Positions 33,847 through 63,660 of a DNA stretch of 64,000 nt are shown here, piece after piece. The notes under the pieces are model-generated. The model saw only the letters and a program-made list of their open reading frames with translations, was not told the origin of the DNA and did not search any database. Source of the stretch: Armillaria gallica (Eukaryota; Basidiomycota; Agaricomycetes; Agaricales; Physalacriaceae); assembly GCA_037576215.1 (NCBI GenBank), contig JBANDB010000007.1, positions 5,983,001 through 6,047,000 of the forward strand, given 5' to 3'. The stretch's first letter is position 1. Each line of letters starts with the position of its first letter. Made by a program: the position numbers and the translations under genes.

Positions 33847-35119
33847 TTAATTGTGTCTTCTTGTGATGCGCAGGTGAGGATGCAGGAATTCCTGGAACTT
33901 AGGGTGTTTTGTTCTATCCTTATGAGCCCAAGAGATTGACCACACTGTGAAAATCTGTACCTGTGAATATTTCAATACAATGGGCTCTCCGTTACTGTCA
34001 TACTGTCAGATCAAGAATATAAATCAATAAAGAAGAATGGACTCACTGCCTAGATGAACCGGCAACTTCAACTAACCAGGGCAGTTGGTCTACATCTTTA
34101 TATGCGTCATAATTGTACTGTGGGAGAGACCCATTGTCATTGCTATGGCCCAGGATATTCTGCAGCTCTCCGATTACAAAGATGGCCAGAACATGCCTGA
34201 GAAAGTCCCATTGACAAATTCCTCCCCCAGTGAAGCCCACCACGTTAATCGTGGGAGGCACTCTGGCCAGACATTTTGCATGGCGGGATGTCACACCCAC
34301 TCGTAGAGAACACTTTCATGATGTTCTTTAATGAGAAGCAACATAACCTGGAAGAGTGAGTGGGCCAAAAAGAGGGGACATTGTAACAGGTTGAGGGAAG
34401 TTCCATAGATTTTGTTGTAGTCCATAGATAAAGCTGGAGACAGGTTCAGGGAAGATGATATGAGATGTCCCAGGGCATGAGGCGTCACATCATTCTTCGA
34501 GCTCTTGCCACCGGCTGCAAGTGAATTGAGGAAACACTGATATGCAACAGAATAGAACCGTATGTCTGGAGGTACAGGTTTCAGATGAGAGTGGTATTTA
34601 TCAAGAATGATGAATATCTTGCATACAAGTGTTTGAAGGTCTGGGCTGACGATGACAAAAGCCTTGGAGGAAGGCAATTGGTATAACATATCCAGGACAG
34701 GCCTGATTGCCTGGCCCTCCGGGACAAGATTATGGACAAGAATGTCAGTGCATTCAATGATGGTAAGGGAAGTTTCGATTAACTGTTTTCAGTTTGAGGC
34801 ATGTGCTGATTCACACAGTCTCTGCTCCATTCGGAAGATCAATGCAAGGATGATACGCAGATCAAGGGTGAAGGAACTGGTGTCGGTAGATGTTGTAATG
34901 GGGAGCGGCCGGTATTCAGATAAAATGTCAAAAATGTACTCCCTCATCTCATCTGTAGGCTTGTTGATAGTATTGAGCTCCCCACTCTCTCCTTTAGACA
35001 AGGGTCTTGCAATGATTTTCATAAGTTCACGCTCTAATTCCAAAGCACCGTTGCCAGAGTAGGTCAGGTCATCAAAGGTGCAATGAACTAGCTTCTTCCA
35101 CACCACTGAGTGCAAGGTG
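33847..35119 (-). pseudogene. DUF6535-type membrane protein, copy 4, 3' half (split by the 28.5 kb element)
   Basis: The last three exons are visible: 33847..33891 (EFLHPHLR...), 33961..33994 (the conserved small exon ending KYSQ) and 34047 upward. Exon 3 begins abruptly inside the peptide TLHSVVWKK, which in copies 1 and 2 continues upstream as QGPQRSS. Here, upstream sequence is replaced by the end of the inserted element. Further damage: a TGA on the minus strand at 34789-34791, a frame change near 34290, and a 3-base gain at the third donor. The missing 5' part is at 63655-64000. Confidence 0.9.
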
Positions 35120-35122
35120 TAG
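35117..35122 (+). repeat. Candidate target-site duplication, left copy
   Basis: GTGTAG here against GTGAGG at 63655-63660: four of six match, and the first three bases are identical. Removing the insert and one copy restores the DUF6535 frame at the split Thr codon. A 3-bp duplication (GTG) is the alternative reading. Confidence 0.55.
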
Positions 35123-35148
35123 TATGGTGCTGGTACAGAGACAAAAAT
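35123..35148 (+). repeat. Left terminal inverted repeat
   Basis: TATGGTG then seven bases then AGAGACAAAAAT. The right end read on the minus strand has the same two blocks at the same spacing; 20 of 26 positions agree without gaps. Confidence 0.88.
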
Positions 35149-35150
35149 GC

Positions 35151-35280
35151 CAAATACCTGATAATACCTGGTAATACCAGGTACTACCAAGTATTACTGA
35201 GTATTACCGGGTATTGTGTGGGATTACTCAGTATTCTCCGGTATTGGCTGGTATTCGCAAGTATTATAAGGTATCACTCA
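35151..35280 (+). repeat. Left subterminal array of 13 ten-bp units
   Basis: Thirteen consecutive units of exactly 10 bp with consensus GTATTACCNG (early units read as AATACC, later ones as GTATT). The core GGTAATACC/GGTATTACC is its own complement apart from the middle base. Units spaced at one helical turn would place bound transposase on one face of the DNA. Confidence 0.85.
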
Positions 35281-36645
35281 AGGAAAAAAAACCCTCACCC
35301 TCCCAATACCTCTCACTACCACCTACCTTGTTTATCTTCCCATCTCTTGACATAACTCCGCCGGCCATGCCCCTGAGTATCTGGGGTCCCAGGCCTAGAC
35401 TGCTATCTTCCTTCAACACTGTTCCCCTTATCCTGACCACCACTGTTGTGCCTGTTCTCCCATAATGACAACCCCCATCTATGGCTCTTCTTGCTCAACA
35501 TTGTCGGTGAGTCCTCATCGCATCCATAGTTGACTGTCAGCCCCATCACCGCTCCTTACGTAGGCCATACGTATCAAAATCTCTTCAAATTTTCATTTTG
35601 TTCCACCCGAGCCTACAAAACAAACTTGCTGACTTAGATGTCCCACTCCCATCTATCTGATATCTCGTCGAGTTGTGTATCAACCGTGAAGAGCCCGATA
35701 TTGATCCATGAAGTCTAGTCTGTCTGTCCCTTTGACAATGGAGAAGCAGAAAAGAACTTCTTATCAGTGATCCTTAGCACCATTAAAACCAGTGTTAAAT
35801 CACACCCAACCTTACTAATCATAGTCTTCATGATCCAGCCTTGATTTCAACCCTAGCAAGTCCATGAACATGTCGTCAACCAAACACATTCCAAACACTT
35901 ATGAACCAGTGTTCTTGCCAGGACTCGCCTGTGCCATGCCGTCACAACACAACTTGTTGGTCGGTCTCTGAAAGGCACCTTCACCGCGACCACGTCCCTT
36001 CAACCAAACAGCCACATTCTAGTTTGAGTCTCCCAGAGTGAACGTAGTACATACTTACCTCCAATGTCTCAACATGTTGCCAACATTGGAAACGACCCAA
36101 CAGGCTGGGTGCCAACCTCCTCAGTGTGTATGAAGTGAAACCTCGACCCAGTAACTTAGCGTCTTAGTTGACCATGAGACACAATATAAGACTCAGACAT
36201 ATAAAACTGGGTCACCCACCTTATTGGCCCTCAGAATGCAACTGGAACACCTATCCACGAGCTCTCGCTCACATCCTTCCTCGCTCGCTGGATGTTGATA
36301 TGCTGTCTCAGGCCCACATTTGTTCCTCTTCTGGATGCTTAGACGGCGCGTTGTGATGGCATTACGAACCCGAACTTGACCTGCTCACTGAGTGTAGCCA
36401 ATCTGTGCGTGCCTTGGTCTGGTAGCCTTGAGTTCTCCCATTGCATACATACTCTGTTGTGTCATGTGTGTCAGTCGAGCAACGGATCTGAATGCAAATA
36501 TCATGAGGCAAGGCCCAACGCATCAGTGTATGTACCATGTTGTCCTCCATCCAACCCTCCTCAACGATCCTGCACTGAATGAACGTCAGAATGTGCTCAA
36601 TAGGACAAAGTTAGCTCATCCTTTAGCACTACACCACCTATTGCC
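35281..36645. other. No gene recognised
   Basis: Left interior margin of the element. Only short frames occur, including a 32-codon one from 35366. I see no coding motif. Confidence 0.4.
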
Positions 36646-37640
36646 ATGGCAGTGCAGAAAACAGGCTCAATTACCTATACCCTCCACCCTCTATCACAGA
36701 TGCACCATGCTTCCATCACAGAAGCATTGGAGATAGATATCAGCATCAATCCCGGAAGCATCGGCATCTCTCAAAAACTTCGGCCTGTTACAGAGGAACT
36801 GCGGCATCTCACAAAGTTCATCAGCATCGCAGACAGCATAATGAGCCAGACAGCCGCCACAATTTCAGCCACCGGGCATTTATCGAAAGAGAAGCTTCAG
36901 GCATTGGGGAGCGGGCATCAAACTCCCTTCACCGCCTCTCCCCAGACCACCCCCAACCTCACATCGTCAATCATGCCACCCTCAACTAATCCCTACCCTG
37001 CAAATGTCACCACTGTCCTGCCCAACAATGCACCTTTTCCGGAGAAACATCGTGTCCAAGTTCAAACCCATTCCCAAACCGATTCCTGTCCTCTCAATTC
37101 GGGGCGCGACAAACCACTTCCACCCATTCCACATGTCCAGTGTGCGCTCGACCTTCAAACATCTCTCGAACGGCAATGCGACATCATCCATCCCTCCTTC
37201 TACCCATCCCCTTACAGCGTTGAGACCAAGACGAATCTTCTTCAGGGAGGCAAACATCGATACCCTCTTCCTCATACCCTCATTCAGCCTCGCGAGTGCC
37301 CCTGCAACTGATGATTGCTCCCTCCACCATACAGTGCACAGGATCCTGGCATGCCTCCATGTTCCTCTTGTGCCATCCACTTCCTCCATCAACTCGTCAA
37401 CAACCCAAACAAACATCGCGGCAATGTGAGCTATCCTGCAATAGTCCTGGCCCCTATTATCCATTGGACGTGTTATCCAACAGCAGCCGCTTCGCATCCA
37501 ACCATGGACAGGGTGCAGGCGGTCGTGTCTGCAGTTTCTTCTGCAAGTGTAGGCAATGGCTTCGCAGTCAAGGCACCCGCAACCAATGTTCATGTCAGAG
37601 CCAGCCACGTTTGGTAGCCTCATCCTCTGATCACCCTTAA
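36646..37640 (+). pseudogene. PPPY-containing protein of unknown function, left copy
   Basis: The frame starts MAVQKTG and includes ITEALE, a GHxxKEKLQALGSGHQTPFTAS block, DKPLPPIPH, HPSFYPS and LPPPYSAQDPGMPPCSS, and ends with a Cys/basic stretch (CSFFCKCRQWLR). It is homologous to the minus-strand gene at 59590-60540, with third-position changes that show this is the coding strand. Two adjacent TGA codons at 37310-37315 stand where the other copy reads Gln-Arg. A frame change (or intron) follows after NKHRGN near 37424. PPPY is the core motif bound by WW domains, including those of NEDD4/Rsp5-type HECT ligases, but whether it is used here is unknown. Confidence 0.65.
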
Positions 37641-37723
37641 CCAGAGTCGCCCTAAGCGCATCCCACCAGTCATATTCCCCATCCTAACATCTTGATCCCA
37701 CTTGCATGCCTGTATCATAAATA

Positions 37724-37980
37724 TGTCTTTACCTGTAGTATATTCCTCCAGTCCAGTTCATCTCTACTGTACATGTTTCCCCTCCTACACGTATCTTGAA
37801 GTCAGTAACCTCACACCTGTTTATCACTCTCCTTTCGTTAGCCACTCGTTTCCCACCAATCAAGGATGTACACACCTGTATTTTTATCACCATGTCTTCA
37901 CCTGCAGTATATTTGCTCCAGTCCAATTGATATCTACTGTACATTTTTAGCATCCAACACATTTCTTGAAGTTAGTACTC
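37724..37980 (+). repeat. Two-copy direct repeat, period about 169 bp
   Basis: The segment starting tgtctttacctg (37724) recurs, diverged, from tgtcttcacctg (37893). Both copies share ccagtcca, tctactgtaca and ttcttgaagt or tcttgaagt at matching places. No coding sense was found. Confidence 0.6.
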
Positions 37981-38313
37981 ATCAGCAAGTTGCGTACCCT
38001 TATTCAAGCCAGTATACGTACCCCATTCCCAACCAACCATCCTCGTCTTCTTTCGGATCGCGCACATAGACCCAACTTATATGAGACATGAGAGTCCCAA
38101 GATACGCAAATATCAATTTCTTCATAGTGAATGACCGAGGTGTAACCAGTCATATCAACTCCTCCATGAAACTGCTAAATTGCCCAGATAAATCGGGTGT
38201 CGATCTAGATTCCAGTTTGCACTTGAGAGTACAGCTATCATATTGAGCTTATCAAATTTCCGAACTACCAGACACCCGGTATATTCAGTATACCGTGACA
38301 CAGCATGCGTTGC

Positions 38314-38415
38314 AAAAATGGGTGCCCTTTTGTTGAGAACATGAAGTTGTTGAAGATGCCGACTGGGATGGTTTAGGGGAGAATGATGGGATATGCAAGG
38401 AGAAGGTATAATGGA
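38314..38415 (+). repeat. 102-bp direct repeat within GT32 fragments, copy 1
   Basis: It matches 38886-38987. I count six differences, all transitions. Confidence 0.85.
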
Positions 38416-38885
38416 TGCTAGCAGCCAATGTCGACATCGTAGTATACACCTCCGTAGTGGTGCAAGACAAAGTACTGGATCACACTGTACCAGAAAATGA
38501 TATCCATTGTACGTCCATAGAAACCAGTGGTACTATTCGTTTATAACTTTTCAAGAAGATTCGTCTGTCCAGAACACGTATTCACTGTCTGGAGGTTAGC
38601 TTGACAGTGTTGGTACCATGAAGATAGACATACTAGTCTGGCTTTAGGTTTCGTCTTGGCCATCTGGTGAAGTAGTGTGAGAAAAATGAATGCAGCACTT
38701 CACCATCCTTGGCATTCTTCCTGTAGAGGGAGTTCAGCAAGATACGGATGGGGTCGCTGAGCGGGGAGGAAGTCCAGATGGTGTATTGTAGGGAAAGCAA
38801 CATAAGTCTGGTAGAGAACATAATGGTGAGGCAGCTGAGGAACCAGGAATGATCAAATGTCATGAGGTTGTGGACGAGCTGAGCA

Positions 38886-38987
38886 AAAAATGGGTGCCCT
38901 TTTGTTGAGAATATGAAGTTGTTGAAGACGCCGATTGGGATGGTTTAAGGGAGAATGATGGGATATGTGAGGAGAAGGTATAATGGA
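38886..38987 (+). repeat. 102-bp direct repeat within GT32 fragments, copy 2
   Basis: Partner of 38314-38415. It is the overlap between the two GT32 pieces and marks the rearrangement junction. Confidence 0.85.
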
Positions 38988-38990
38988 GGA

Positions 38991-40892
38991 CGAGCATATG
39001 TCAGCATTCAATATGTGTCCAGTGAACACAAGTCTCGTTACCTTGCTTCTTCCATATTTCAGGATGCCGATACCTCAAATGATAGGACCATTCTCATGGT
39101 GTCTTCCATTATCCCTCGTCTGCCAGTATCTCACTGAGTGGAACTGTTGAAGCTAAAATGTTGTGGCAGGCACCTGCTTCTCTGAGTGTCAATCCTATAG
39201 TGTATTTGAGACCAGTTTGTGGTTGGAATGTTGTCATTTGTTGTGATCGGGATTGATCTATTACATGCATGAGACTGTGAAGATATCCTACCTTGTGCAT
39301 CTCTCATGTACATTGGTTTCCCACTACGATCAACAACGTCAGCAGACACGAATCTCCGGGCTCCAAACTGGCAACGAATACCTTTCTCTCTTCAGTAATC
39401 ACGAAATATATGGTCTTCAATTACCGAGGCACCAACGAGGTGGGTAAATGAACACTAGGATTCAGAATCTCCTTGATTATGGAGTGCCAACGAATCTGTA
39501 TTCACCTATTCGAAAGTAAAAGAGCCAGTGTTCATATCCCAGCAGTCTTAGCAGGATACGCCTGCACGACTGCCTCACCGAGGTGATCATACTGCACTGA
39601 GGCAGCATGGCAAGAAGGCTGCGAATAGTCTAGATATTCCATGTCATAGATTTCACTGAAAACTGGTGTGAGAGCTTGATTTAATATCGTAGCAAGTTCA
39701 CATACAGAGTTGTACACTCAAGAAACCAAACCAGACGCTCCAGGTGGACACCTCAATCAAGTCAAAATCGGCCATTCATATACTACCCCCCCCCCCCCCC
39801 ATCATCGTAGATGACAAAATGGCTCGTGCACTTCCTTCAAAGGGAATAACTGCACAATTTGAACAAATCCACAACTAAACAAGCAGTTTCGCTCCGTGTA
39901 CGTGTCTTCAGTCGAGGAATGCAAGTGAATGAGAGGGGGTGCATCAATGTGAATAGCATTCCGATGGGATTTTGTTCATATTCTACGCGATATCCATATG
40001 TATAATCTCCTCTATGCTTGCTCTACGCATTCTGAGCTGGGGTGCTCGCACTAGCAGCAGAAGAGGTTGCTCCAGCAGTGCTCGTCATCACAGTGTCTGC
40101 ATTTTCGCTAGAGATGGGGGTGAAATGAGGGGTAATACCCTGCTGGATGAACGTGAGGTCGGGAGTGCATTCGTGGCTGATGGCCAGCATCGCTTGTTGG
40201 AGGCTCTGAAAGTGAATGGTGAGTTTTGATCTCAGCTGTGTCGACAGGCCAGCAACACTCACATTTTTACGTCGCTCCACATGCTCTGGTGCCTCTGGCC
40301 AATCGCAAAACCAAAGTACAAAGAGTTCTTCCATGAAACATTTGGTTTGCTCCATGTAGAGCACATTCTCAAAGAGGTGCCCTATATGGCGCAAGAATCC
40401 GACTTGATCTTCACTGTAGAGACACTGAAGGGGGATAAGAACCATACAGCATTAATGTGGGGAATAGCGTACAGGACCATGGTCCTCATCGACCACCGGA
40501 TTGGCACTACTAGTTGGTGCGGAGGCGTCAGGAATGCTGTTGAGGGATTCGCTCATCATGGGTCAACCACGAGGTGAATATTTGGGAGGAGGCTTGCGGA
40601 TCCGAATGGCATGTGTAATAGACCTGTCATTTCAAATCCCTTTGCAATGACACTCGCCCTCAATCGTACTTTTAGATCTCGTCCATCTCCAGTGTGATTT
40701 TAATTTACTTAAAAATAACCGTTGTGCTCTGATTTGACTGAGACATCTGCTGCAAACCTCGGCCGGTCCCTGGGTGCCTCTAAGTCAGCCAAGATCCCAG
40801 ATCTCCTTCCTTAATGGAAAGGACTCACAATTGATAATAATCGTTAAGTACCCACTGTACCCATCTACTCTGTGTTCTGCCCCCACCTTTCC
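38991..40892. other. Sparse region; one unrecognised minus-strand frame
   Basis: A run of 14 C occurs at about 39787-39800. The minus-strand frame 40023-40445 (140 codons, Ser/Thr/Ala-rich end, a glutamine-rich middle) may be the last exons of a gene but matches nothing I know. The rest holds no recognisable gene. Confidence 0.35.
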
Positions 40893-43800
40893 ATGAGCAC
40901 CCACATTCCCATTCATCTACAGTGCCTTCCCCCCTGTGATTGTGCAGAGTTCTACTCTGATGGCTCGAGCCTGCATGGGCCTACGCAATTACAGCACTTG
41001 AAATGTGACAGCTGCGGCCACCCGTGGTTCTCCCATCTGGCGCTGGACATCCTCGAGACAGACGCACTGTACCTGCACCGCCGCCGAGGGCTGCTCAAAA
41101 GTCGCTGCTAAGGTTTTGTTCCCAACCTGTGTGCTGTACGTCTGCTCACTTCATGAACCTTCATCAATCTGTTGTGTCATCTAACGTTCCTCTTCTAGAC
41201 ACTTTTGATGAACCACTGGAATCCTCACACTCTGTGTGTATGCGGCGGTGAGTGGAAAGCTCACATGTCCTACCATGCCAGGTCAGTCACATGTATCTCT
41301 CATCTCTCTAGTCGCCATCACTCACCTCATTGCTGTTGTCAGTGTTTCTCCTCCTGTTCCTTCAAGGCCACCGTTGGTCGCTCCCCCCTTCACTCTTCTA
41401 TAGTCTGACTGGATTTTTTAGCATCCTCTCAGTGGCACCCGCTGTTCCGCCTGCCACACCTCCCCCTCTAGCACCCACTGACACGGTTCTGCCTTTGCCA
41501 ACTGCAAGAGCTGTCGCTGAGCGTGCCACCGAGCGTGTCACCGGGCTGCCACCACCTATTCAGGCAATCCGGAGCCTCACTGTCATGGACACTACAGACG
41601 CCAACACCCTACGAATGGACATGGCACAACGAACACTACCCCAGCACCAGACTGCCTCCCAAACAGGCCCTCCATCAGCCAATGCCAAAGGTAAACGCAA
41701 AGCTCGTCCGGCCAGCATCAATCCCCAAAAGAGTCGCATCGAACTTGACATCATGATTGCACCCAACATTGTAAGCACGTCCTTTCGCGCCCTCGTGGCC
41801 ATTGCTATCATAGCTGAGTCACTCCTTTAGGAAGAACCGGACCACGCGGACGACGTGTGGGGTTACCATCAGTTAGCTTTGCGTGCAGACCAAATCAGGA
41901 CTGCCTATGACAAGGTGTTCATTCCTAACCACCTGGGGCATCGCATTACCCTTATGCCAATACTGCCACTGTTGCAGCAAATTGATAGTGAACTTTGTAG
42001 AGCAGTCAAAGTGGGTAGGTTGGAGGTTCCAGGACTCGACGAGTTCATTGCCAACAAGGAGGACGTCATTTATAACTCTAGCTATCCATGGGTTTGGCTG
42101 GCTCCCCAGCAAAGGGGCAATATGTACTCCTTCCAACCAGCCAGAAGTCTCAGCGGCGCCGTCATCATGCCTTTGGCCTTGGTGAACCTGACCCGGATGT
42201 TCCAGCCACTGCCCGCCAGCCAGGAGAACAGATTCTTCCTCATTGTTGGTATGTTCACGGTGATGTTTCGTCAAGTGTCTACTGATCTGACTCTATTAGC
42301 TCCTTGTTTCAGCGACATCAAAGGGTCCATACAGTACTTTGTGAGACCCAACAAAGAAATTGTCGAACAGGACGAACTGCACGCGTGCTTCTGCTATCGT
42401 GTATTGCACGCAGCAGGCATGGGATTCTACCGCAAAGCCAGTCGCGGCAAGGATGCACCACCTGCCTGGCCCCAACAGGTTAAGTGCCTACCAGGATGTC
42501 CTCAGGCGGAGCCTCTCGACAGTTCTGACGATGAGATCGGCAGAGCACTACCTAACACTCCCACCCATCATGCTAGCCCTCGCTTCCCCTCTTGGTCACC
42601 ACCACCCATCAAGGTCACACTCACAGTAGGCCCACATACACCCGCATGGAGACATTCAACTCCTAATGGCCCTGAGCGGATGACTCGACAGCCATCTCCC
42701 ATGCCTAGGACGCATGATGCTCATCACATGATTATCTTCAATTGGCAGAGAGCCTGTCACCTCACAGTCGATCAGTGCTACACTGATCTTGGCTACAGGA
42801 TAGCAGGTGACACCATGGAGGACATCGCGGAGGTGCTATGGTCTTGGTTCCAGCACACAGTCGAGCGGCCTCCTGGGAGTTTTGATCTTTGCCCCTTCCC
42901 ATCGATTCAACGATTCAGTCTGAGCGATGGAGACTTCCATATACTGCAACTCTTTGAACAGCAGGCATATATGTGACTCTATAACACGTAAGCTCCTCTG
43001 TCTCTGCAGGTGTTCTGTAACTCACTCAGTTGATGATTGACAGTAGGGAAGGATCAGATAGAGGAGGTCCAGCTCTCAGTCTGGGACTGGAGCATAGCTG
43101 TTTGTTGGCCACTCTGCAGCTCATGGTTCAGGGTAAACGTTACTGGAAACAACGAGGCGATGGGACGTACACATTCATACTCGGGAGTACCCGCATGCCT
43201 ATTGATGCTCGCACCCACTATATGACTGTCTCAGGCAGATTATTAGCCCTGTCTCTCATCCAGTTGGGACAAGGTTTTGTGGTGTCCCTGTGGGTGGTGT
43301 TAGCCTTGATTGATGGGTTGGATGCCTTTGGACAATTAAGTCTCGACCAGATCCGCGCGTTCTCTGAATCTGATACGAACACGGTAGCTTGTTGGTATCA
43401 AGTGGGTCGTGAAACTCACATAGATCACCACTGTGCCCAATGCGCCGCAATCCAAGGACTCTTCGTGGAACCTCTCTCTGTAGAGGTAAGCCTTTTATCA
43501 AATGCATCTAGCGAATTGGACCATTGAGCGCATGTCTGTAGCTCGTGGACTTTGTGGAGCCTCACAACGAGATATCCCACCGCGCTCTGACTGCCTGCCT
43601 AAATGCCCGTATGCTTCTCAATGATGACATCTATTGGCCACACCCTGATCTGGAGGCATTGCGTCGTGGCTTTGACTGGGAATTAGCATGAGAGAGTGCA
43701 GGCACTCCTGCAAACAAACTTATTGATGTGAGCCGGCCGTGGCTGATGCATCTGTTCTGTTCCTGCTAAACGCCGATCCCCTGTTTTGCTCTCAGATAAC

Positions 43801-44452
43801 AAACCATTTTGCAACCATACCGTTGCTGCAGCGATTGTTTCAACTGTTTGTAATGGTCGAGGATGTTATTCCCCACCTAGTCTACCAGTTGAACAGTCGC
43901 CGCAGCCTGCCTGTGGATATCTATGAATGTTCGCTCATCCTACTCTTCAAGAGTTGCCTGGAGTCCTATCTTTGGGGTGTCAGGCATCCACTCGCAAGCA
44001 AGAGGGAGCTAGTGACCACGGAACAATGGGAGCAAGAGAAAGACGATCCCTTGGTGCAGGCCTGCCTGTTGCTGGATGCTGCTTGAGCTCTGCCCTGACC
44101 CCCAGCAGCACCTATGTGGGAGATTCGAGTGAGTCTTCACAATACAGTACATGTGTGCTAGGAGGCAGGCTCACCTGGGTTTTGTCCAGTTCGATTGCAC
44201 CTTTGCTAAACAAAATGACGCGGTATGCCTGACCTCCCTCACTCACCCTCCTCTACTAACCCTACGGTCTCTGTACGTTCCCAGTGAGAAACATCAATGC
44301 ATCTGCATATGTGTTTGGGGTCGGCTGACATCTACTTCACTCCTGAGCTAGCCGATATGCTCTCTCAAAAAGACTCCGACATGGATCATCCTTCCTACCA
44401 TTTCTTTCATGCGCAATGTCTGTGTTCAATCAAACAGTATTTGTCAGCTTGA
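40893..44452 (+). pseudogene. Cys-rich protein with possible HECT-like C-terminus, intron-rich, damaged
   Basis: From ATG at 40893 the first exon holds a Cys/His module (CDC, then CDSCGHPWFSH). A second module, LCVCGGEWKAH, follows at about 41229. Next come a Pro-rich and basic linker (about 41430-41750), an intron with GTAAGC donor near 41772, and an open exon 41831-42976 with no named motif. Later exons carry SGRLLALSLIQLGQG (about 43224), a repeat of Leu-rich helices, and a C-terminal SADIYFTPELADML stretch near 44320-44365. A 'small helix then LxLAL' pattern followed by a Cys just before a conserved terminal block resembles the HECT E3 ligase C-lobe; this is a tentative call. A frame change just before the last block suggests damage or a missed intron. 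Confidence 0.45.
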
Positions 44453-44809
44453 ATGCGCCAGTGGATGCTGTGTCAGTCTGCTTACCTACATAGTAGCTTA
44501 AAGCAATCGTAGTTGGGGACCGAATAAAATGATTAGATGGGAGATTTATTAAGATTGATCACACGTCCCGTGATGGAATGCTGTGGTACATGGAGTGACT
44601 TCTCAGAAACCAGAAACAGGAATGGGGGCACTACTGACACACCCCAAATGTGAACTCATATACACCCAATCTAGGGGGCACACCAGCCAGCACGACTTTG
44701 TGGCGGATATTTTGCACAGACATTTCTGAGAATTTGCAATGCCTTCGTGGGCCACATATATTAAAAGCTTGACAGCGACCAAACTCTCCTCCTATTGCAA
44801 CCGCCCACC
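44453..44809. other. Short spacer, no gene recognised
   Basis: Spacer between two plus-strand genes; it probably contains the promoter of the next gene, with a possible TATA-like atatattaaaa at about 44755-44765. Confidence 0.35.
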
Positions 44810-47454: not shown

Positions 47455-47826
47455 ATGATGTCCTCTGCTTCATGGACGATGCTGCCATGGTACGTCGTCC
47501 TTCCTGTGAGCTGGAAGTTGGCTGATGCCAAGGATCCTATCCTATGTCAGCACCAAGCACAATTTCCTGCAGCTGAGTATGCGACCTTGCAAGAGAACAT
47601 CCACTACATGGTGGAGGCCCTCGACACAGCCGTTCACCAGTGTAACGACCCGCCAGACTCCAGACCTGTTCTCACCGCAGGTAGGCGTGTACGCATGGGA
47701 AAGCGGGGTCGACCGTGTATCGAGATCGAGCCGAACTATCTGTTGCAGAGCTTCAGGGAGTCCGGTGACAGTGCCTATCGAGAGGTCTCCGTGGTGGCCG
47801 ACTGCAGTGGACGCAGTGTTCGGCGA

Positions 47827-47829
47827 TGA
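47827..47829 (+). other. Nonsense codon TGA in integrase HTH region
   Basis: The frame reads SVRR-stop-HQDYG; the repeated Arg before it and the family pattern suggest CGA. Confidence 0.7.
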
Positions 47830-50673: not shown

Positions 50674-51091
50674 TTTCTGACCCCAGAGCTAGGAACAGAG
50701 AGTCAGGTGTGATAATCGATCACACACGGGTAAAAGTGAAGGGCCTGGTGGAGTCACATCCAGTTGAGAGTGATAGTCATCTGGTACAGAACCATTATGT
50801 CGTATCTACACCTGTTGCAATGAGATAGAATCTGACGAATTTCTTACCATTTCTTTCTGAGTGCCTCCGGTCCGAGGATCCAAAGTGAAATTTCAGATGC
50901 CACCCGGCCGACCAATGCCATGGCTGTGGCGGTGCAGCCGCTGCCATGTCTCAGGGATCAGCCCGTTCTCATAGCTCACCACTGTCTTCCACTCATCATC
51001 ACTCTTGTCGGGATTCAACAGCCCAGTCATTTCCTTCTCTCAGATGTGACATTGTCAGCTGAGACAGACTCGGTGTATCTACCTCTGACCA
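50674..51091. other. Spacer, possibly first exon of the next gene
   Basis: From 50897 a frame MPPGRPMPWLWRCSRCHVSG with a CxxC pair precedes the large ORF. It may be a first exon, but no clean splice pair ties it in. Confidence 0.35.
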
Positions 51092-53210: not shown

Positions 53211-53575
53211 GACACCATGTTAGGGAAACACTCGGGGTGTATGCAGGTGTCACGGCATGGGAGGATCCGGCAGAGCTTGCTGGAGATGTCTAAGAAACAT
53301 CCGCTCGTAGTCAGTCAATGGCAGTTGAATGCCCGGCCTTCTCGCCATTATGTTAACATATTGTCATATAATCTTGTTCCTTTCGCGAATTGATATCTAA
53401 TGGATCAGAGATCCGGTGTGATTCCAAGCTATGCGGTAACAGGAAACCATATGCAACAATACATTTTGTGTCCTTGACATTGGAGCACCAGGATCCTACT
53501 TCACGTGGACCAGTGGAATCAACCAAAAGGCTATAACGCACTACCGTCAACATCATTGTTATGGCTATCCATGCG

Positions 53576-53963
53576 TCAGGTTTCCAGTGCCTCCAGCTGC
53601 ATCATCAAATGGCTGTTTATGTCTTGCTGCTTCTCCAGACTGAGTAGAGCCTGCTCGAGCAACTTTTTGGTCTGGAAGAGTGCTTCCTGCGCAAGACCAG
53701 CTTGATGGGCAGCATTCCGACAGCGTCTGGCCAACTATGAACACACTTAGTTAAGCAGGAGAGACGACATGGAGGACGGCACCTACCACCCAAGAGAAAG
53801 CAACTTCCATCGCCAGTTGTTCACGTAACTGGGCCATGTGCCATTTGGCAAACTGTAAGTCTATCATCGCCAGCTCCCAGCACTGTGCTCCCCTCAGCCT
53901 CTCGAATGATAGCCAAAACGAGTGACCTACTCTCTCCATTGATATGCCCTCCAGTTCCAACAC
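53576..53963 (-). CDS. Small coiled-coil protein
   Basis: Model: complement(join(53576..53734, 53787..53963)), 111 aa, one 52-bp intron, phase 0. The sequence is almost entirely helical with heptads (RRCRNAAHQAGLAQEALFQ, LLEQALLSLEKQQDINSHL). It has no RING or other domain. A start at the inner ATG (53939) is also possible. It may assemble with the coiled-coil RING proteins on either side, or be the 3' end of a longer gene, since no upstream exon was looked for beyond 54100 with success. Confidence 0.6.
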
Positions 53964-54425
53964 TTGGTCTGTTCTGGACCCTCTTCACAGCCATCGGAAG
54001 GACAGATGCAAACAAAACATGCTTGATATGATACGACAAGTGGATGGCCACTTTGAAAGCGAGTCAGTGAGGAACGACAGGGATGGGCCAGAATATAGGC
54101 TGCAGGCGACTGATCTTTGACAGTGATGGTATATAATCAACCAAGATAACCTTTTCACCACCGTGTGAATGAGGGCATGCCACAGCCCAGGGTCAAAAGC
54201 TCAGTGAAGACTTAACATTGCAGTTTTTGGGATTACTTGGACCACCCCCGGCTGAGGATAAGCTCTGGCGGCAATGCACAAAATGGTACTTAAGGTTGTA
54301 ATACCGTCCCCTCAAGTTCTATCAATCACACACACATTTAAACTATTTCAGCGTGTAGCAACGTGAATGTTCCGTTCTGGTTGAAGTACAGTACATCCTA
54401 CATGGTAGCAACTGTGATGTCAGCG
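53964..54425. other. Spacer, no gene recognised
   Basis: Between two minus-strand genes; no motif was seen. Confidence 0.35.
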
Positions 54426-55266
54426 TCAAGACCGTCTGTGATGGCCGAGGTATTGGAGTAGATGGGGCCATGGACGAATTGTAATTCGTCCATCATGATC
54501 ACTGCCCACTCCTGCCGGAGGTGGAGGGATTCCACGACTTGTCGCCCATGCTTGAACAGCCGCCTTGAGACCCAGATTCTTAGTGGGTGCAGAGTGAAGT
54601 TCACGTTTGCAGGCAGGACAGGTGTACCACGGATGTTTGGCATGAGGGGGATGAACAAGATGGTGATATAGAATGCTAACCTCCCATAGCTTGGCTTGCG
54701 ACCTGGAAGCGAAGTCAAACAACAGCTGGGGGAGCACCATGGGACTGCGGGGATTAACTCCTGGATGTTGAACCAGAAAGGTGTTGTCGATCTGGTTAAA
54801 CCAAGCATGTGAACAGCGGGCGCAAACGGAGTGTCCACAATCCATCCTAGAAAGTTGTTGTCATTGCCGATCACAGCAGAACGCGCTGACTGGGGCACTT
54901 ACTGGTAGGGCTCCCACATTAAGGAGTGGCAGTGTGGACATTCCAAGGGCTCAGTGATGGATTGCACCTGCGAGATCAGGTTAGTTATTGTGAACCGCAA
55001 GCTGAAAGTGACCATACTGACGAGGCGACGCAGAAAATGGTCCCCAACATGCAGCCTCAGGTAGTGCATACCAAGCTCCCTCTCAAGCTCCAATACACGG
55101 TTGGCGAGATGGCGGTTATCCTGGGTCGAAGATCAGTTCACGAATGTGTGTAACTTCATATAGTTTGCACCTTCAAAAGGTCCTCAAAAGCGGTGGCAAC
55201 ATCAACAGTCAAAGTGCCGTTGGGGTCGGTGCTGGGATCGGGAGAGCCTGGCATGTGGGAGGGCAT
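54426..55266 (-). CDS. Coiled-coil RING-HC protein (intact)
   Basis: Model: complement(join(54426..54846, 54903..54967, 55022..55120, 55171..55266)), 226 aa, introns 50-56 bp, all phases agree and no stop occurs. The N-terminus is Pro/Ser/Thr-rich (MPSHMPGSPDPS). Exons 2-3 give a coiled coil (DNRHLANRVLELERELG). The RING-HC finger spans the last intron: CPHC, then C-G-H (MDCGHS), CARC and, after a long loop, CPAC. The last intron ends so that Gln is completed across the junction (PYQMDCGH). The tail is basic. It is the best-preserved ubiquitin-ligase-like gene in the element, and a different RING subtype from the one at 49873-50673. Target unknown. Confidence 0.85.
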
Positions 55267-56252
55267 AGGGTGGGTGGGGGAGGAGATGGAAGGTCTGGTC
55301 GCAATGGTAGAGAGATCAGTGGCAGTGCGATAATTGCAATTCGGATCTCAGGCCTTTCGGCGCCTACCAGTGCTTATTGAGGTGGATGTATAATCACACG
55401 GTGGCATGCCTTTGATTGGGAGTGGAGACTGAAATGCGGCTCTGACTGAAACTGACGGGTCGCCTCTACCTCCCATGGCACGGCGGTATTCTCACGAAGT
55501 CACTCTCACTCACGGGCAGGCGGCCATCCTACCACTAAGGGAGCCCTCACTCACAAACACAGCTCTCAGGAAGGTGTCAAATCACCATGCCTGTGTGAAG
55601 GAATATTGACCCTATCAAGTCCAATTTAACAAAAACATTGTACTTTGACATTAAGGTTCGTGGCTATTACTGACTGTTCCACATACTCAATTTATCAACA
55701 GATTAAATTGATCCAGACCCCTGTAGGTGGCCTTCCCCTGGTCAAGACGGATGCATGAGACCCCCCCTCCTTGCAAGTGCAGACTGGGCACAGTTGAACC
55801 TGACGGTTGCCGTGGAGGAGTCAGAGTTGACATCATTGCTCTGCTCAACCCAAGAGAACTCGTGTGGAGTCGGGCCTGTCTTACTCTCTCGAATTGGATT
55901 TACGATGGAGGCTGAATTTTAGTACCTAGCAACAGAACGTTCGAAGACGTTGGCTTGGTATTGGGGGACTGACATTAGCAGACGCATGCCAAATGATGAT
56001 TGATTCAGGAACCTACTGTGCTGAGCAACATGCCCACGATCTGGGATGGGATAGATCTGGTTGAGGAGGATAGGTACCTGAGCAGATTTGGGAAGACAGC
56101 GTGCCTGCTAAATAGGTGACAAAGCATGATGCGCCTAGCTTGGCATTCGCGAGGTTAGCCCAGCCAAATTGCTCGTGCTTGAGTAGCATGTCGTTCCAGG
56201 TAATGTGGGCTCACGTTAGTGGGCGATTAGTTTGTTCACGCATTACAAGCAG
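55267..56252. other. Spacer, no gene recognised
   Basis: It separates the divergently arranged RING-HC gene and the first F-box gene, so it may hold both promoters. A second possible start of the RING-HC gene upstream is closed by a TGA near 55360. Confidence 0.4.
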
Positions 56253-57467
56253 GCACTATGTACGGAATTGGTGGATGCCATCATAGATTGGGCATGTGAA
56301 GATGACCCCGGAGAGTGGGGACAACCATCCAGGGCAGGCGCAATCGGGTTGGTGTGCAAGGCTACGTTACCGTGATCGAGGGTCCGACTGGTTGAGATGG
56401 TGGTGGTTGTGGCAGATCGTGAGGATTGCGACAGCTTGGCAGTGCAAGGCTGGTTCATGCATGGCTCCCACCAACATCTGCGGATGCATGTACATCGTAT
56501 CAAGTGGCGTGGTCCAGTTGACCTCGCTCTCGTGGGACCAATCATCGATTTCTTCTCCCGAGTTTCGACTCTGTGTCTCTGGGCATGCAAGGACTGGCCA
56601 GTCACAATGCTGGGCCAGTCTACCTTTCCAACAATCACAAAACTCGAAGTTGAGCAGGCCATGTTTCCGACAGGGGGGCTGGCATATATCACTGAGGCGC
56701 TGTCATCCTTGACAGAAGTGCATTTGTGGGATGGTCTGTAGGTGCATCTTTCACCTGGTCAGTTTGGTCTACCGGGCACCCTGCTAGACTTGAGTCTGGA
56801 TCTTGAAACTTCCTTGGTGTGGGGGTTGGATGACTGGCTGTGCTGCACATGGTTGTCTGAAAAATTGTGTGCAATGCTGGAACCTTGGTTGGCAAGAGTG
56901 AGAGGGCTGCAGTCATTGTCGGTCAGGGCACAGTCTAAGAGCATGATGCTGGTAGTCGATGGGCTGCTGGAACGTAACATGAACATGTTGACACATCTGG
57001 AGTACAACACTGGTGAGTGAGAGGGGATCTGCATATGTATGCAGACTGACTAAGCTGCAGGATGTGATGGTGGATTTGAGGAGGCGGACTTGAGTGTCAA
57101 CGTTTGTGCAAAGCTGGAGTCTTTGGTGTTAGGTGCCATGGATCCAATGGTCCATCTGTTAGTGCCAGCGATACAGGACTTTGAGGCTGCCAGGCTGAAG
57201 ACATTGTGGTTGGAGATCCACATCGTGACACAGAGCATCGACAGCAGTGTATCCATGGAGAGCCTGGAGTCCTTTGACAAGTTGTTGAAGGCTTTGCATG
57301 ACCTCTTGACCCGGTCACAGGTGGAGGAACTAGGTTTCGCATTTTATTACTGCAACTGTGAACAGCTGCGATCTACGGAGGAGTACATGAGGCGGACATC
57401 GGGCCTGCGGAAGACTAGGGTGATTATGCTGTGCAGTTGTACCTACTTTAGTCAATATGAGATGTGA
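56253..57467 (+). pseudogene. F-box-like/leucine-rich protein, copy 1, damaged
   Basis: It begins after a splice-acceptor-like AG with ALCTELVDAIIDWA and AIGLVCKATLP, an F-box-like helix set of basidiomycete type. F-box proteins link substrates to SCF ubiquitin ligases through Skp1. A leucine-rich region follows (FPTITKLEVEQAMF, LTEVHLWDGL, LLDLSLDLE, LQSLSVRAQ, LKTLWLEIHI). An intron at about 57011-57060 has clean ends and joins in frame. Lesions: TGA at 56373-56375 in LP-stop-SRV, where arginine fits, and TAG at 56739-56741 where glutamine fits. The first exon is not identified. Confidence 0.72.
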
Positions 57468-57584
57468 AAATCGTAACAGATGAGCGCTGGCACAGATGTG
57501 TCATGACTGTGGGGCTGGGTCGTGCGGGGGCTGCTGGATTGCGCCGTTTGTTGGCTCTTTCTTTCCTTGCTTTCATAGTGTATC

Positions 57585-58932
57585 ATGAACGTGACCGCTA
57601 GTCAACTGCCTGCAGGAAACGGTCCCATACATTCCAAGAGTTGGATAGAGGTGAGTGTCCGAACTGCGGGTTGTGACAGGCAGGCTAATGTTCACTGCAG
57701 CAGCTACCCGACAATATCTTGAAGAGAATCGTAGCGGAGGTGTGTGACGGTGATCCTCAGGGTGGAAGGCTGTTACTGCCAGTTTCCGCGTGTTTCTATG
57801 CAATGGCGGAGGAGATTGCAGTGCAATTGGTGGAGGTAGTAGATTACGAAGGGGAGTATCATTCCCTGGAGGTGGCTGTCTGCTGGTTCTCTCACATTGA
57901 CCACTTGGGAGACACGTCGGCCGCAAGGTGGCTGCAATGGAAGGCTGGTACATTGCGAGCCGATGGGCTGGCAGTGGTGCTGGCTCAGCTACCTAATATT
58001 TGTTCGATGAGACTGGTAAATACGAGGGTCAGGGATGTCTTGCTGATGCCACAGATGGAGAGCATCGTGTTGGAGCATTGCATGCTCTGGTTCCCGGAGC
58101 TGGATTTGTTCCTGGCTGCACTACCTGCCCTGCAGATGCTGGTGATTGAGGGCCATGGAACCATTTTTGAGAGGGGCGTAGGAGTGGAGGCAGAGTACGA
58201 GTCAGCGTTGACGCTTCCAGCGACGTTGAGTCGGTTGGAGGTGGATGCCAGACATGTGCCCGAAGGTGAATGGGCTTTGTATTGGTTTCGCAATGCGAGA
58301 GGGCTGATGGAGCTGTGTGTGGGAATGACAGGTGCTGTGGGGTGGTACCCTGGGACTAACATTGTGGATGATAGCCAGGAGTGCCTGGAGGTCTTGACCT
58401 TGGCTCTGGGTGAGTCTGTATTCATCTGTCGAGCTGTGTTAGAGGGCTAATGGATCCCACAGAACACCAGTGGCAGCAGTGGAATCATTACTATGACATG
58501 ACAGACTGTGTAGCTTTGACCGAGGTCAGCTTGTCGGTCACCGACACTGCGGTGGACCTGGAGCATCTGGGTGACTTACTGGGCCACTTGGATTCACCGC
58601 GACTGGTTTCGCTAACTGTCGGCATTCACATCTGGTCCCAGACCGTACGGGCTTTCGATTTGGATACAACGAATACATATGTCATTGTGGCAGCGGCTTG
58701 GATAGGACCCTCATTGGAGACGCAGGTGGGGATTTCGCGAGTAGACTGTCAGATCCGCTGGAATGCATGCCCGAGTCTTCGCCAGGTCAACCTCATCCTC
58801 TATTTCTACGAGGATAGTTACCACAAGGAGGTCGCAGAGGTGTACTGGTCATGTTTCATGGAGGTGAGGCAACAATGGAATAATGTGAAGGTAGCCAGAG
58901 AGGTTGTAAGCTACTCGTACGAACTATTGTAA
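57585..58932 (+). CDS. F-box-like/leucine-rich protein, copy 2 (intact)
   Basis: Model: join(57585..57650, 57701..58409, 58463..58932), 414 aa, introns 50 and 53 bp, all phases agree. After a short start exon the F-box-like motif is QLPDNILKRIVAEVC, then LLLPVSACFYAMAEEI. The leucine-rich part has repeated LxxLxL units (LVNTRVRDVLLMPQMESIVLE; LPALQMLVIEG; LSRLEVDAR; CLEVLTLAL). It ends in a conserved helical part. By analogy it would give substrate specificity to an SCF-type ligase. It follows copy 1 in tandem and has no stop, in contrast to copy 1. Confidence 0.8.
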
Positions 58933-59589
58933 CCCTGAGAGAAGCTCTTCGTTGGTCCGTGTTGATGTGTGGTAGAACCCAAGATCATTATCATTCAGGT
59001 TGCCAAAGGCTCGGCAGGTACGTGAGCGTTGACAATACAGGTAAGATAGTGTAAGATTTTGTATGATTTTTGTGATTGATCTGGTACTGATGTCTAACAT
59101 AGCTGTTCCCCGAATGCAGCGCACAAGTTCCACATGTTGATCTTCTCTATGCAGCTCAGGATATGGATCAGGGCAAAGAGATGTCCATGTTCTTCCAACT
59201 TCCATTAGCAGGCATGTGGTTATCACGGCGCTGGCAACTAGGGCTCTTGACGTACTTGGTGAGTTCCCCGTCTTATGACATCAGTGCAATACTAACAAGC
59301 TGGCATAGAATTAGCAAATCGATGACGATTATTGAATAACAAGGTGACCTAAACCCTCAGTATTTTGTGATGTTAGGCTATGGACAGGACATTCGGTAGA
59401 TGTCGCTGTATCCTTGACGGGTTGCCCTGGTTTCATTGACTACAAGGTAAAGACGACGGATATGATACAGTGTAATGTGAATCAAAACGGCTGGTATGGA
59501 TGATGATGTGGTGGGATGGACGTCAATACGGAATCTAGTGACCCATGGTCAGAGCATGACAAGCGCAAGTGAGGCTCGTCCTTACCTGT
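58933..59589. other. Spacer, no gene recognised
   Basis: Between the F-box gene and the convergently placed PPPY gene; no motif was seen. Confidence 0.4.
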
Positions 59590-60540
59590 TCATGTGTTGC
59601 GGGTGCCCTGGAGCCATTTCTTGCACCTGCGGAAGAAGCAACAGAGACGGCCGACTGGAGCTTGTCCGTGAGTAGAGGCGACATGGTTGGTATTGGACAA
59701 CGCATCCAATGGATAACCAAGACCAAGGCCTATATTCCCGCGACATTTGTGAGGATTGTTGATGGGTCGATGGACCCATCGGACAGTCCGAGAGGAGCAT
59801 GGAGGCACGGTTGGATCAACAGCAGTGTATGGGGGAGGGAGAGATCGTTGGTTGCACGATAATTCGTGAGGCTCAGCGTAGGTGTGATAACCAGGATGCA
59901 AAAATTTGCTGAGGTGAATGAGTTGCCTCTTGGTCTGAACAGTGAGCACGGTTGTCTGGAAGGAGGGATGGAGGACATCGCGTTGGGATTGCAGAGACAC
60001 TTCAAGAGCATTTGCATCACGGATGGAAGGGATTGGTGGAAGTGGTTTGTCATGGCCGAGATTAAGAGAGTTGGTTTTTGTGTGGGAGTGGGGTTGCGCC
60101 GGATAAGGAACAGCGTCTGCGGCGGGCTTTGGCGGTGTTAGCAGGGGAGGTATGAGTGGAGGGTGGCATAGTTGATGATGTGAGATTAGGGTGGACTAGG
60201 CAGATGCTGTGAAGGGAGTTTGAGGGCCGCCCCCCGATGCCCGATGCTTCTCTTTAGAGGCATGCCCGACAGCTCAAACGGCGGGGGCTGTCCAGCACAC
60301 CATTCCATTTCCCATGCCGACGCTGCTATGCCTATTCAACAGCTGACAAATGGCTCGGCACATCTTTCCATCGTTCGATGCTGATATTTGCCTGATTGAT
60401 GCTGATGCTTGCTGACTGATGCTGAGCTGATATCGATCTGCTAGATGTCTGGTGGATGCCAATGCTTCTGTGATAGATGGTGAAGGGTATGGATGTTCCA
60501 GCGTGTCTATTCTTGGCGCCAACCAGCTCTTTCATCTCCA
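59590..60540 (-). pseudogene. PPPY-containing protein of unknown function, right copy
   Basis: Minus strand. The C-terminal two thirds are open from about 60255 to the TGA at 59590, apart from a TAG at 60196-60198 where glutamine fits: GGPQTPFTAS, DKPLPPIPS, DVLHPSFQ, SLPPPYTAVDPTVPPCSS, INNPHKCRGN and a Cys/basic end (LCCFFRRCKKWLQ). The N-terminal part (SITEALAS, then Gln/Ser-rich repeats of about 60360-60470) is in another frame. It is the inverted paralog of 36646-37640, with roughly two thirds of bases matching by eye. Both copies are transcribed toward the centre of the element. The function is not known to me. Confidence 0.65.
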
Positions 60541-63520
60541 CCACCACATTTTCGATTGTCTAAGGCTTGCCGGCATTCCAATACCCACTCCTTCCATCTG
60601 CCAATCCGTTTAGTGGACCTGCGTCTTCCCTTGACTAACACTGTGTTTCAACAAATTTGAGTTCAAGACATTCCTATGAGTGGAAAGGATAGGATAACTA
60701 GAAGGTGACAACGACCAAGTTCGGGGCAACTGGTTTTTGGGTGGCCAGAGGGAAGGACTTGAAAGAATCGGTGTAACCCTTCGTTGATGGAGAGAACGGC
60801 CCTTGGCTTTGATGGCTAACATCAATATGACAGGTTTCTAGTACCACAGTATCTTTGTGCTTACCGTCCCTTCAGTCTACGTCGTTCATTCTCAGTAGGG
60901 CAGCTCCAACTTTATTCTGATTTAATGTATCGTGTTCTGGCAACCAACAACACACCTGATGTGTCACGAGAACTTGGAGGCTTGGCTGCTGGCACACGAT
61001 GTGGGGAGGATTGGTTGACCATGCTCAGAACGTCCTATGTAAACAGAGTTCAGCGTGCATTTCGTTCTTGTGGTTGCTCAATGGTCATTCGCCAAAGTGG
61101 GCAGCGACGCTTGGCACGGGTTTTACACAGGGAAGGTGTATAGTATGTTATCTCCTTGCTCTGAGCTCGTGTGCTGAAGTACTCGATAGGCGTAGCTTCA
61201 AACTCAATGTCGTTTGGCATCAGGACGATAGATTTGGTTCTGTGTCTGAAAGAAAAGATGCCGCTGTTCAGGAGCAGATAACTTTCAGTTCTATGCCCCT
61301 ACACACATAGCTTCGACCCTCCTGCAGATCAAACCAGACGTCAAGGAAGTGGAGGCTGAGACTGACGACGCTGGTATCGCAAGAAGATAGCTTTGAGAAC
61401 AAGACAATACAATGACTGGTATAAGAGGTATGGAGCATACAAATGGATGATATGTAACTAGCAGTTATGAGAAGACACAAAAAACCGCAAAGCATGCATG
61501 GAATACATGTCAGTTATAGCTTGATGGCAATATGGCAATGGGAAGACTGACTGGGATGAATAGAAGCATGGTCATTTACATCCACCCGGGGATGAAGACA
61601 CCGACGACAGTGATGCCATTCCATACGATGCAAACGTGAATCTCCACCACGAAAATGCAGTTATTGGTCTGGAAAAGCAGAAATACTCCAGAAATGGTTC
61701 TGTTGGGCCTCAGAGGGAATGGGCGACCAGCCGTGGGACCCAGGACGATGCTATGATGCATGGTTCGCATGGTGGCACATCGAACCTCATTGATGAGAAC
61801 CAGGCCAAGAACATACAATGCAAGAGTGACCGAGTGTGAAGCCGCTGTCGTATTGAGTGTGAGGTAAACGATGGTGCAGAGGCGGTTGGCTGGGGTATGA
61901 GGCGGGCAAAAGAATGGGGAGGTGACAGGGTTCCCCACACCAATATTGAAGTATGCACTGCGACAAAGTGAAGCGAGTCCTCCTGTAGTAAGGGAGTGAC
62001 ACACACCCTTGCATAGCCATTCGCCCCAGACCCACGAGAGCGAACATGACCATTGTACTAGCAGGCCCATCAGCCCTAATCATTGGAGAGTCCGATGGGA
62101 TGGCGGCATACATGCAAGAGCCTAGAATTCGAAGAATGAGAGTGGTGGTGGCTCAGAGTGACATTGTTGTGAGGTTGAGTGCGGAATACCTGGGGAGATT
62201 GGTCAGCATTTCGATGTCCAGAGACGACGCAAAGAATAGGCTCACCTGGTAGTACAATGGAGAGATAGAGGTACTCTGAGGGAAAGACGCACCATGCAGA
62301 TGATAGCTTGGGAAAAAGAGAAAAGATTAAAGTATTGGTGTGACCAGTTGGTCACACAGAATGTTCGCCTACAATAGTAGTAGAGTGAGTTGTTACTGAG
62401 AGGTAAATTTACGGCTTGTTTCCTGAAATTTCTGAACGTCTAAAGGGCTCTGGCAGGATCTTATACATTTGAAAAATATATGGGACAACAATAGTAGCTA
62501 GGAACCACAGATAATCTTATCGTACTGCCACCCGGCAAAGGCCGTCCTGATGGCGGAACTTTTTCACCACCTACGGGTCACTATCTGTCAGCCACTCTTC
62601 GAGACAAACACCTACGCTTGAGGATCTGCCCTTTGTTCACTAGTGTGTGAGGGGTGTGCGTCCTTTGCTGGACTGAGAGTGAATAGCTCATAAATTCACT
62701 TACCGTCACTGTCTTTTCGGTCCCCTCGGGAGAATCTCGTGAAAGGACGGACTGGGAATGTTGGTCGTGGGTCCGTTGTTATGCCGCGGGGTGGAGAGGA
62801 TCTATCTTGAAGTCAGAGAGCATTATTGAAAGGAGCGAGTGCTAACCTTGAAGTTTTAAAGGCACCAAGTATGTAGTAGCTTTCATTCATCATGGCTGGC
62901 ACTCATTTATGTTCAGCTGTCTACGACCATAGGTGGCTTCGGGGCTTGGGGATCACTATGCGTATGCTGAAAAAATGAAAGCCGGAGAGCACGTTTGAGT
63001 TGATCTCTTCAGGTGAGGATCTGTTTTTGTTACCTGTGCGACTAGACGTATGTTTCTTTTGTAGTAACATACATGCTACGAATGCTAGCAAACTCGGAGG
63101 GTCGGTGCGAGTGTAGAATAGCCGAGCGAACAAGTGAGGTACTTGCGCCATGAGTTGGGCCATCTGAATGAAAAGATGCAGTCGAACATATAGTTGGTTT
63201 GTTAGCTACGCGTAAATGTGAGGATAATCGAACCCTGGCCTTGCAAGGCAAATACATATGTAGTGAGTCGACTACATCAATAACAGTCTTGCCAGAAGCT
63301 GTGGTAGGTTCGGACTTAGGCTTGAGTGCGAGCGTGGTAGGACCCCGGAACCCAAGCCATGATTGTGCCGAGGAGGCGGCCGATAACTGTCAGTGGCGCG
63401 GTATTGTGTGGTAGCACGCGGTATTATGTGGTAGGGAAAAGGATGGGGGTCAGGTAATGGTAGGTATGGGGATTGGCGATCAGGGACTGGTGGCTGTGGA
63501 GGACAGTCGAGTCGGACACT
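60541..63520. other. Right interior margin; weak minus-strand membrane-protein-like frames
   Basis: Minus-strand frames 61576-62070 and 61787-62113 have several hydrophobic stretches (VTLALYVLGLVLI; ISGVFLLFQ) that could be remnants of a multipass protein. They do not join into one model and I recognise no family. The rest (60600-61500 and 62270-63520) shows no gene. Confidence 0.3.
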
Positions 63521-63532
63521 ATAAAAAGAGTC

Positions 63533-63600
63533 TAATACCCTGTACTACCGAGTACTACCGGGTAATACTTCCCAATACCGGGAATACCGCTCAATACCTC
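63533..63600 (-). repeat. Right subterminal array of seven ten-bp units
   Basis: AATACC or ACTACC recurs at 63534, 63544, 63554, 63564, 63574, 63583 and 63593: period 10, one step of 9. On the minus strand it reads as the same GGTATT unit as the left array. Confidence 0.85.
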
Positions 63601-63628
63601 AATATGTGAAAAAAGTGAGTGGTTGGTG

Positions 63629-63654
63629 ATTTTTGTCTCTAAAATGACACCATA
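63629..63654 (-). repeat. Right terminal inverted repeat
   Basis: Read on the minus strand from 63654: TATGGTG, seven bases, AGAGACAAAAAT, matching the left end at equal spacing. Confidence 0.88.
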
Positions 63655-63660
63655 GTGAGG
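63655..63660 (+). repeat. Candidate target-site duplication, right copy
   Basis: GTGAGG, matching the intact site in DUF6535 copy 3 (AAGGTGAGGGAAG) and, in four of six bases, the left copy at 35117-35122. Confidence 0.55.

Follow-up and report, generated by a model that had tools for sequence, protein, structure and literature searches.

Within a 64,000-bp stretch of Armillaria gallica DNA (here called the window; positions 5983001-6047000 of contig C7 in an analysed genome of 86 Mb and 28 contigs), two parts of a DUF6535 gene are held apart by about 28.5 kb of other DNA. The locus raises the question of whether this DNA is a single mobile element with defined ends, to which kind of transposon it belongs, and whether the genes inside are its own.

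The interrupted gene and the bounds of the element

The 3' part of the split, degenerate DUF6535 paralog lies on the minus strand at 33900..35122 (left limit approximate). Part of its 5' portion is found on the same strand at 63661..64000 and continues beyond the window end. When the flanks are joined with one copy of the target duplication, a single alignment runs straight through the site to the window paralog at 10447-12801 (70% over 1,044 columns). The two parts thus align as one gene, which disposes of the concern that they stem from different genes or from an assembly join. The preliminary description of this DNA had placed the split at a single codon; the split is borne out, and is better described as a 6-bp duplication with the Thr codon at its edge.

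Three window paralogs (3595-5997, 10447-12801 and 22740-24943) are DUF6535 proteins according to Pfam and carry the domain N-terminally. Together with the split gene (~33900-35122), which is the fourth member, they form a local array on the minus strand. The only piece of the split gene that was scanned (34294-34788) has no Pfam match, and its DUF6535 name therefore rests on paralogy. Further stops and an apparent frameshift are present beyond the insertion, so the gene may already have been non-functional when the element arrived. The split gene was, or became, a pseudogene. Elsewhere outside the element, an ORF at 17613-18062 has a phosphotransferase match (APH, PF01636) above the cut-off.

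The element spans 35123..63654 (28,532 bp) and has the same ends as independent insertions on contigs C2 and C4. Its termini are 26-bp inverted repeats at 35123..35148 (plus strand, beginning TATGGTG) and 63629..63654 (minus strand). On recomputation, 20 of 26 bases agree between the left repeat and the reverse complement of the right one, as first described. Next to the repeats are subterminal arrays of GGTAnTACC-like motifs (35153..35275 and 63397..63598). Per 300 bp, the motif GGTANY/RNTACC occurs 13 and 11 times at the ends of the window element and 0.85 times inside, which bears out the arrays of the preliminary description. The corresponding end counts are 11 and 12 in the C2 element and 13 and 6 in the C4 element.

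The element is flanked by the hexamers GTGTAG (35117..35122) and GTGAGG (63655..63660), both read on the plus strand. They pair at 4/6, as the preliminary description stated. Since a match of at least 4/6 has a chance of about 4%, this duplication alone is weak evidence; it becomes convincing through the other insertions. With up to two mismatches, the end pattern is found at 19 places in the genome, and a reversed control gave 0. These places pair into seven elements (C7 in the window, C15, C2, C4, C12, C1 and C2b), with five single ends left over. A looser pattern gave 64 places against 24 in its control, so many of the additional matches may be noise. Target duplications were compared in six of the seven pairs, C15 being omitted as the same insertion as the window: they are perfect (6/6) in C12, C4, C1 and C2b, 5/6 in C2 and 4/6 in the window. 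All six paired elements examined have the termini TATGG..CCATA.

The C2 element (28,479 bp) is colinear with the window element over its whole length at ~94% identity and has the same ends in different flanks. The two differ by 21 indels; the largest ones are a deletion of 571 bp, ~3 kb from the left end, and an insertion of 510 bp close to the right end. The C4 element (27,784 bp) is strongly diverged, and its DNA aligns to the window in six patches of 65-68% identity only. The C15 element is near-identical to that of the window, and in the stretches compared its flanking DNA is 99.8-99.9% identical to that around the window element. Carrying the window's own flanks, it represents the same insertion and was rejected as independent evidence. 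Window positions 600-1600 are likewise ~100% identical to C18:255182-256182, and identity to C15 is 99.9% over the element region. These stretches are either segmental duplications of recent date or pieces of a second haplotype that the assembly has retained.

Three paired elements are short: C12 (6,123 bp), C1 (3,668 bp) and C2b (2,038 bp). They have no transposase match among the genome transposase rows and look non-autonomous. C12 resembles the window element only at the two ends in the parts compared, ~2.5 kb of its interior lying outside the comparison.

In the other copies the element stops at these very bases and does not extend further, and the DUF6535 parts align as one gene. The region 35123-63654 is thus confirmed as one complete large mobile element and not a loose cluster of genes.

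Transposase and accompanying genes

The transposase is encoded on the plus strand (47479..49196) in two exons of about 47479-48486 and 48546-49196. Both frames match fungal rve proteins, with PF24764 and, more weakly, PF00665. The presumed catalytic D, D and E lie within the motifs HHDGQHG, GDHSTEN and IERLW; in the relative P0033 their spacing is D-56-D-34-E (DD34E). The first catalytic D is found at position 234 in P0001, 250 in P0024, 114 in P0033, 295 in P0092 and 251 in P0020, positions that depend on predicted protein starts made by others and fall within the 100-300 residues from the N-terminus given for IS3EU. Among NCBIfam models, that of IS481 is the best bacterial match for five of the six proteins tested and that of IS3 is second for four of these five, in both cases far below the cut-off. 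For the sixth, P0024, an unrelated model comes first and IS3 second (E 0.05).

Four in-frame stops interrupt the window transposase, and because of them the window copy is probably no longer autonomous. Three of the four have a plain CpG C-to-T look in comparison with the C2 copy, whose transposase has one stop of its own at another position.

The transposase is accompanied by several further genes. Gene B (40893..46646, plus strand) is either a single gene for a long, multi-block protein or a group of two or more genes; it is delineated by C4-aligned blocks and has, by eye, a Cys/His-rich start. Gene A (49873..53290, plus strand) has a C4 alignment reaching 53237 and a possible coiled-coil start, also judged by eye. 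On the minus strand a RING-like gene follows (54429..54860; C4-aligned span 54447-54845), which is 45% identical to its C4 counterpart. Its identification stems mostly from sub-threshold Pfam matches, whereas the C4 ORF L069:6509-6925 passes the cut-off (22.2 vs 21 bits). Gene F (56214..57458, plus strand) has its C4 counterpart at another place and on the opposite strand. Gene D (57689..58932, plus strand; C4-aligned 57701-58857) has an F-box/LRR-like look. Such a reading, made by eye for both D and F, found no support from Pfam, which gave no match, part of the search extending up to E 10.

Gene G, with function unassigned, is present twice, close to either end of the element, as the arms of an internal inverted gene duplication. 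Copy 1 is located at 36604..37640 (plus strand) and its inverted counterpart, copy 2, at 59590..60531 (minus strand); the arm of copy 1 is 71-81% complementary to 59612-60506. No match to gene G was found in the 28-kb C4 element. Homologs are present at C4:6669032 and C5:4335514.

Pfam searches and, for genes A and B, PDB sequence searches named no function for genes A, B, D, F and G; the Pfam scan covered 29 of the 144 window ORFs of at least 70 aa. Two matches below the cut-off, to GCSF at 40026-40451 and to herpes gp350 at 57985-58446, were taken as chance. Five of the eight gene A homologs are named; those of gene B are P0129-P0132, of which two are named, both Armillaria nabsnona. Across the homologs of both genes the names are Armillaria nabsnona, A. 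borealis, A. mellea and Desarmillaria tabescens.

In the C4 element the genes B, transposase, A, RING-like (minus strand) and D are colinear with the window. Six genes with C4 counterparts, including the transposase, are under codon-level constraint: position 3 of the codon is less conserved than either position 1 or position 2 in each of the 19 blocks tested, out of 21 aligned between C4 and window. The blocks were chosen by protein similarity, a choice biased towards this outcome, and one of them (51227-52906) crosses a frame change and mixes frames. The greater conservation of positions 1 and 2 points to selection at the protein level since the window and C4 families split.

Gene A has 60 match rows in the genome, which merge into 48 loci. 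It lies within 40 kb of 17 of the 25 transposase loci (merged by hand from 36 rows), with 1.2 expected, and of 13 of 21 when the four elements studied are removed; as these counts treat related copies as independent, the binomial P values are optimistic. Eight of the 25 transposase loci have no gene A inside 40 kb, and most of the 48 gene A loci have no listed transposase nearby. In other assemblies, homologs apparently share a contig in A. nabsnona (P0122 and P0130), in A. borealis (P0007 and P0123) and in the case of P0121 and P0129. Gene B has 18 match rows in the genome. The RING-like gene has 11, the top four of which are the C7, C15, C2 and C4 elements; of the others, one has genes B and D as neighbours on C5, and the remaining six map to different places.

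Further loci contain parts of this gene set. At C5:4314075-4335918 and C4:6669032-6690881, gene G, a transposase and gene A are spread over ~22 kb, the two loci mirroring each other in orientation; they probably represent a further giant family whose ends differ. A degenerate end occurs together with genes B and D and the RING-like gene at C5:4590660-4614445, where no transposase is listed; this is likely a broken copy. Genes A and B are present at C18:1249364-1287734 together with a C4-type end that lies at a greater distance than in C4 itself; this is likely a member of the C4 family that has been broken or enlarged.

Probable affiliation with IS3EU and alternative explanations

The preliminary description knew of no named basidiomycete element with this combination of features. 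This part does not hold, since the ends, the 6-bp duplications and the transposase class match the IS3EU superfamily. The element is rated as a giant variant of this known superfamily on the basis of three features: the TATGG..CCATA ends, the duplications of 6 bp, and a transposase that among bacterial models comes nearest to IS481/IS3.

In the accessible parts of a study on rust fungi, IS3EU elements are reported with TAYGG..CCRTA ends and 6-bp target duplications, and with genes beyond the transposase (PMC12730594), all of which is shared by the Armillaria element. The inverted repeats differ, being 26 bp at 20/26 here and reported as >30 bp there, although this length is not given as a rule for the superfamily (PMC12730594). 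Gene content differs as well: the rust-fungus families carry a TET/JBP gene and an alpha-kinase (PMC12730594), the Armillaria element genes A, B, D, F, G and the RING-like gene. A TET/JBP search of the whole genome gave three sub-threshold matches, none of them inside the elements described, and no alpha-kinase was found in the 29 ORFs scanned. The IS3EU/GingerRoot and IS481EU elements, as far as described in the text available (PMC10045372), have TA..TA ends, 6-bp duplications (IS3EU) and an IS481/IS3-like core in common with the Armillaria element. IS481EU is described there with a single protein and duplications of ~4, 15 or 25 bp (PMC10045372), in contrast to the multi-gene unit of 28.5 kb.

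Among Agaricomycetes, the IS3EU repeat class is listed for the mushrooms Ganoderma (PMC8955403) and Phlebopus (PMC12411881). The passages concerned give this superfamily label with copy counts and base totals only, for Phlebopus 11 copies with 7 kb in total and 34 copies with 30 kb (PMC12411881), and contain no giant multi-gene unit (PMC8955403, PMC12411881). A 2019 review regards elements >20 kb as giant, and IS3EU is absent from its main text (PMC6431247). In a search of open-licence papers, with Repbase reports outside its scope, no giant multi-gene IS3EU element was found among the matches listed, and none in Agaricomycetes.

Other large transposons of fungi differ in their machinery. Starships are also giant and carry many genes; the sources at hand define them by a tyrosine recombinase and record them in Pezizomycotina, whereas the Armillaria element has an rve/DDE transposase with terminal inverted repeats. 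Starship membership was rejected, as no tyrosine recombinase Pfam match was found in 29 of the 144 ORFs and a DDE transposase is present. Plavaka and Zisupton are DNA transposons of mushroom fungi able to carry extra genes, with reported duplications of 2-3 bp (Plavaka) and 8 bp (Zisupton) and other ends, for Plavaka TGT..ACA or CATCA..TGATG (PMC12730594). The 6-bp duplications and TATGG ends of the Armillaria element led to the rejection of Plavaka membership.

Very probably, judging from sequence comparison, the element is a giant 28.5-kb cut-and-paste IS3EU DNA transposon, the extra genes presumably being part of its own life cycle. The DDE transposase would bind the inverted repeats together with the subterminal arrays and excise the complete unit, extra genes included, which would then be inserted at target cuts staggered by 6 bp. 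Given how they are conserved and linked, the other genes may be transposition helpers or anti-silencing factors and not random host cargo.

Alternatively, an IS3EU element of ordinary size could have been filled up inside through nested insertions and the capture of host DNA, in which case the extra genes would be chance passengers. The absence of a gene G match in C4, the changed place and strand of gene F, the existence of same-ended elements of 2.0, 3.7 and 6.1 kb and the many gene A loci without a listed transposase would all fit. However, C2 is colinear at 28.5 kb, and C4, at only 65-68% identity in DNA patches, keeps the order B, transposase, A, RING-like, D with codon-level constraint. 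Gene A is furthermore linked to diverged transposases. A filled interior is thus improbable. A virus, or a Polinton-like provirus, that encodes an rve integrase and became integrated would likewise account for 28 kb of DNA with many genes, inverted repeats and 6-bp duplications. The last two features fit Polintons also, and Polintons/Mavericks carry genes for DNA polymerase B, a packaging ATPase and capsid. The 29 of 144 ORFs scanned gave no Pfam match to a DNA polymerase, ATPase, protease or capsid protein. Searches of viral contigs found no relative of the transposase or of gene A (query P0123), and gene A has no relative in a PDB sequence search. The weak PDB sequence match of gene B to the viral protein UL144 (E 0.26) and a sub-threshold Pfam match to a viral glycoprotein, which might be cited in favour of a provirus, were both taken as chance. 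With 29 of the 144 ORFs covered, a viral origin is rated very unlikely. That two ends were paired by chance or by an assembly artefact might be suspected from the 4/6 duplication and from the near-identical C15 and C18 stretches, which hint at duplicated haplotypes. The same ends at nearly the same spacing are present on C2 in different flanks, though, and C4 has a 6/6 duplication. With the colinear C2 copy, the specificity of the end pattern and the perfect duplications elsewhere, a chance or assembly join was rejected; its probability is close to nil.

Decay of the copies and implications

Among the aligned bases of the C7 and C2 copies there are 1,593 differences, 1,554 of them transitions and 39 transversions; 970 of the transitions are at CpG with the neighbouring base shared. 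Three comparisons of DUF6535 paralogs from the same window gave transition:transversion ratios of ~1.5 to 1.8. CpG is depleted to 0.57 in the element, compared with 0.93 in the left 35 kb. Both copies are affected, with 615 CpG changes in C7 and 355 in C2 if a C-to-T direction is assumed. The phase of the differences reveals no clear codon constraint, as expected if CpG decay dominates. These differences are read as the traces of a methylation- or RIP-like attack. The small number of transversions suggests that C7 and C2 parted not long ago.

Ascomycetes have well-documented giant transposons with gene cargo, the Starships; for mushrooms, none was described among the matches listed in the literature searched. 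With the ends, the duplications, the short relatives and two diverged full-length families in one genome, a giant DDE element together with its conserved gene module becomes directly studiable. The near-pure transition spectrum, mostly at CpG, provides a clean test of RIP-like or methylation-driven defence in Agaricomycetes.

The named homologs of the module genes come so far only from Armillaria and Desarmillaria. A tentative wider reading, possible though doubtful, is that Armillaria harbours a long-lived giant IS3EU lineage, probably with forms of 28 kb and, by gene spacing, larger ones too. It would have its own conserved module and RING-like ubiquitin-ligase genes; the module might serve as a counter-silencing or transposition apparatus replacing TET/JBP, while the host hypermutates the copies at CpG. 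If the extra genes are required, the element would represent a eukaryotic IS-like transposon that has grown into a multi-gene machine.
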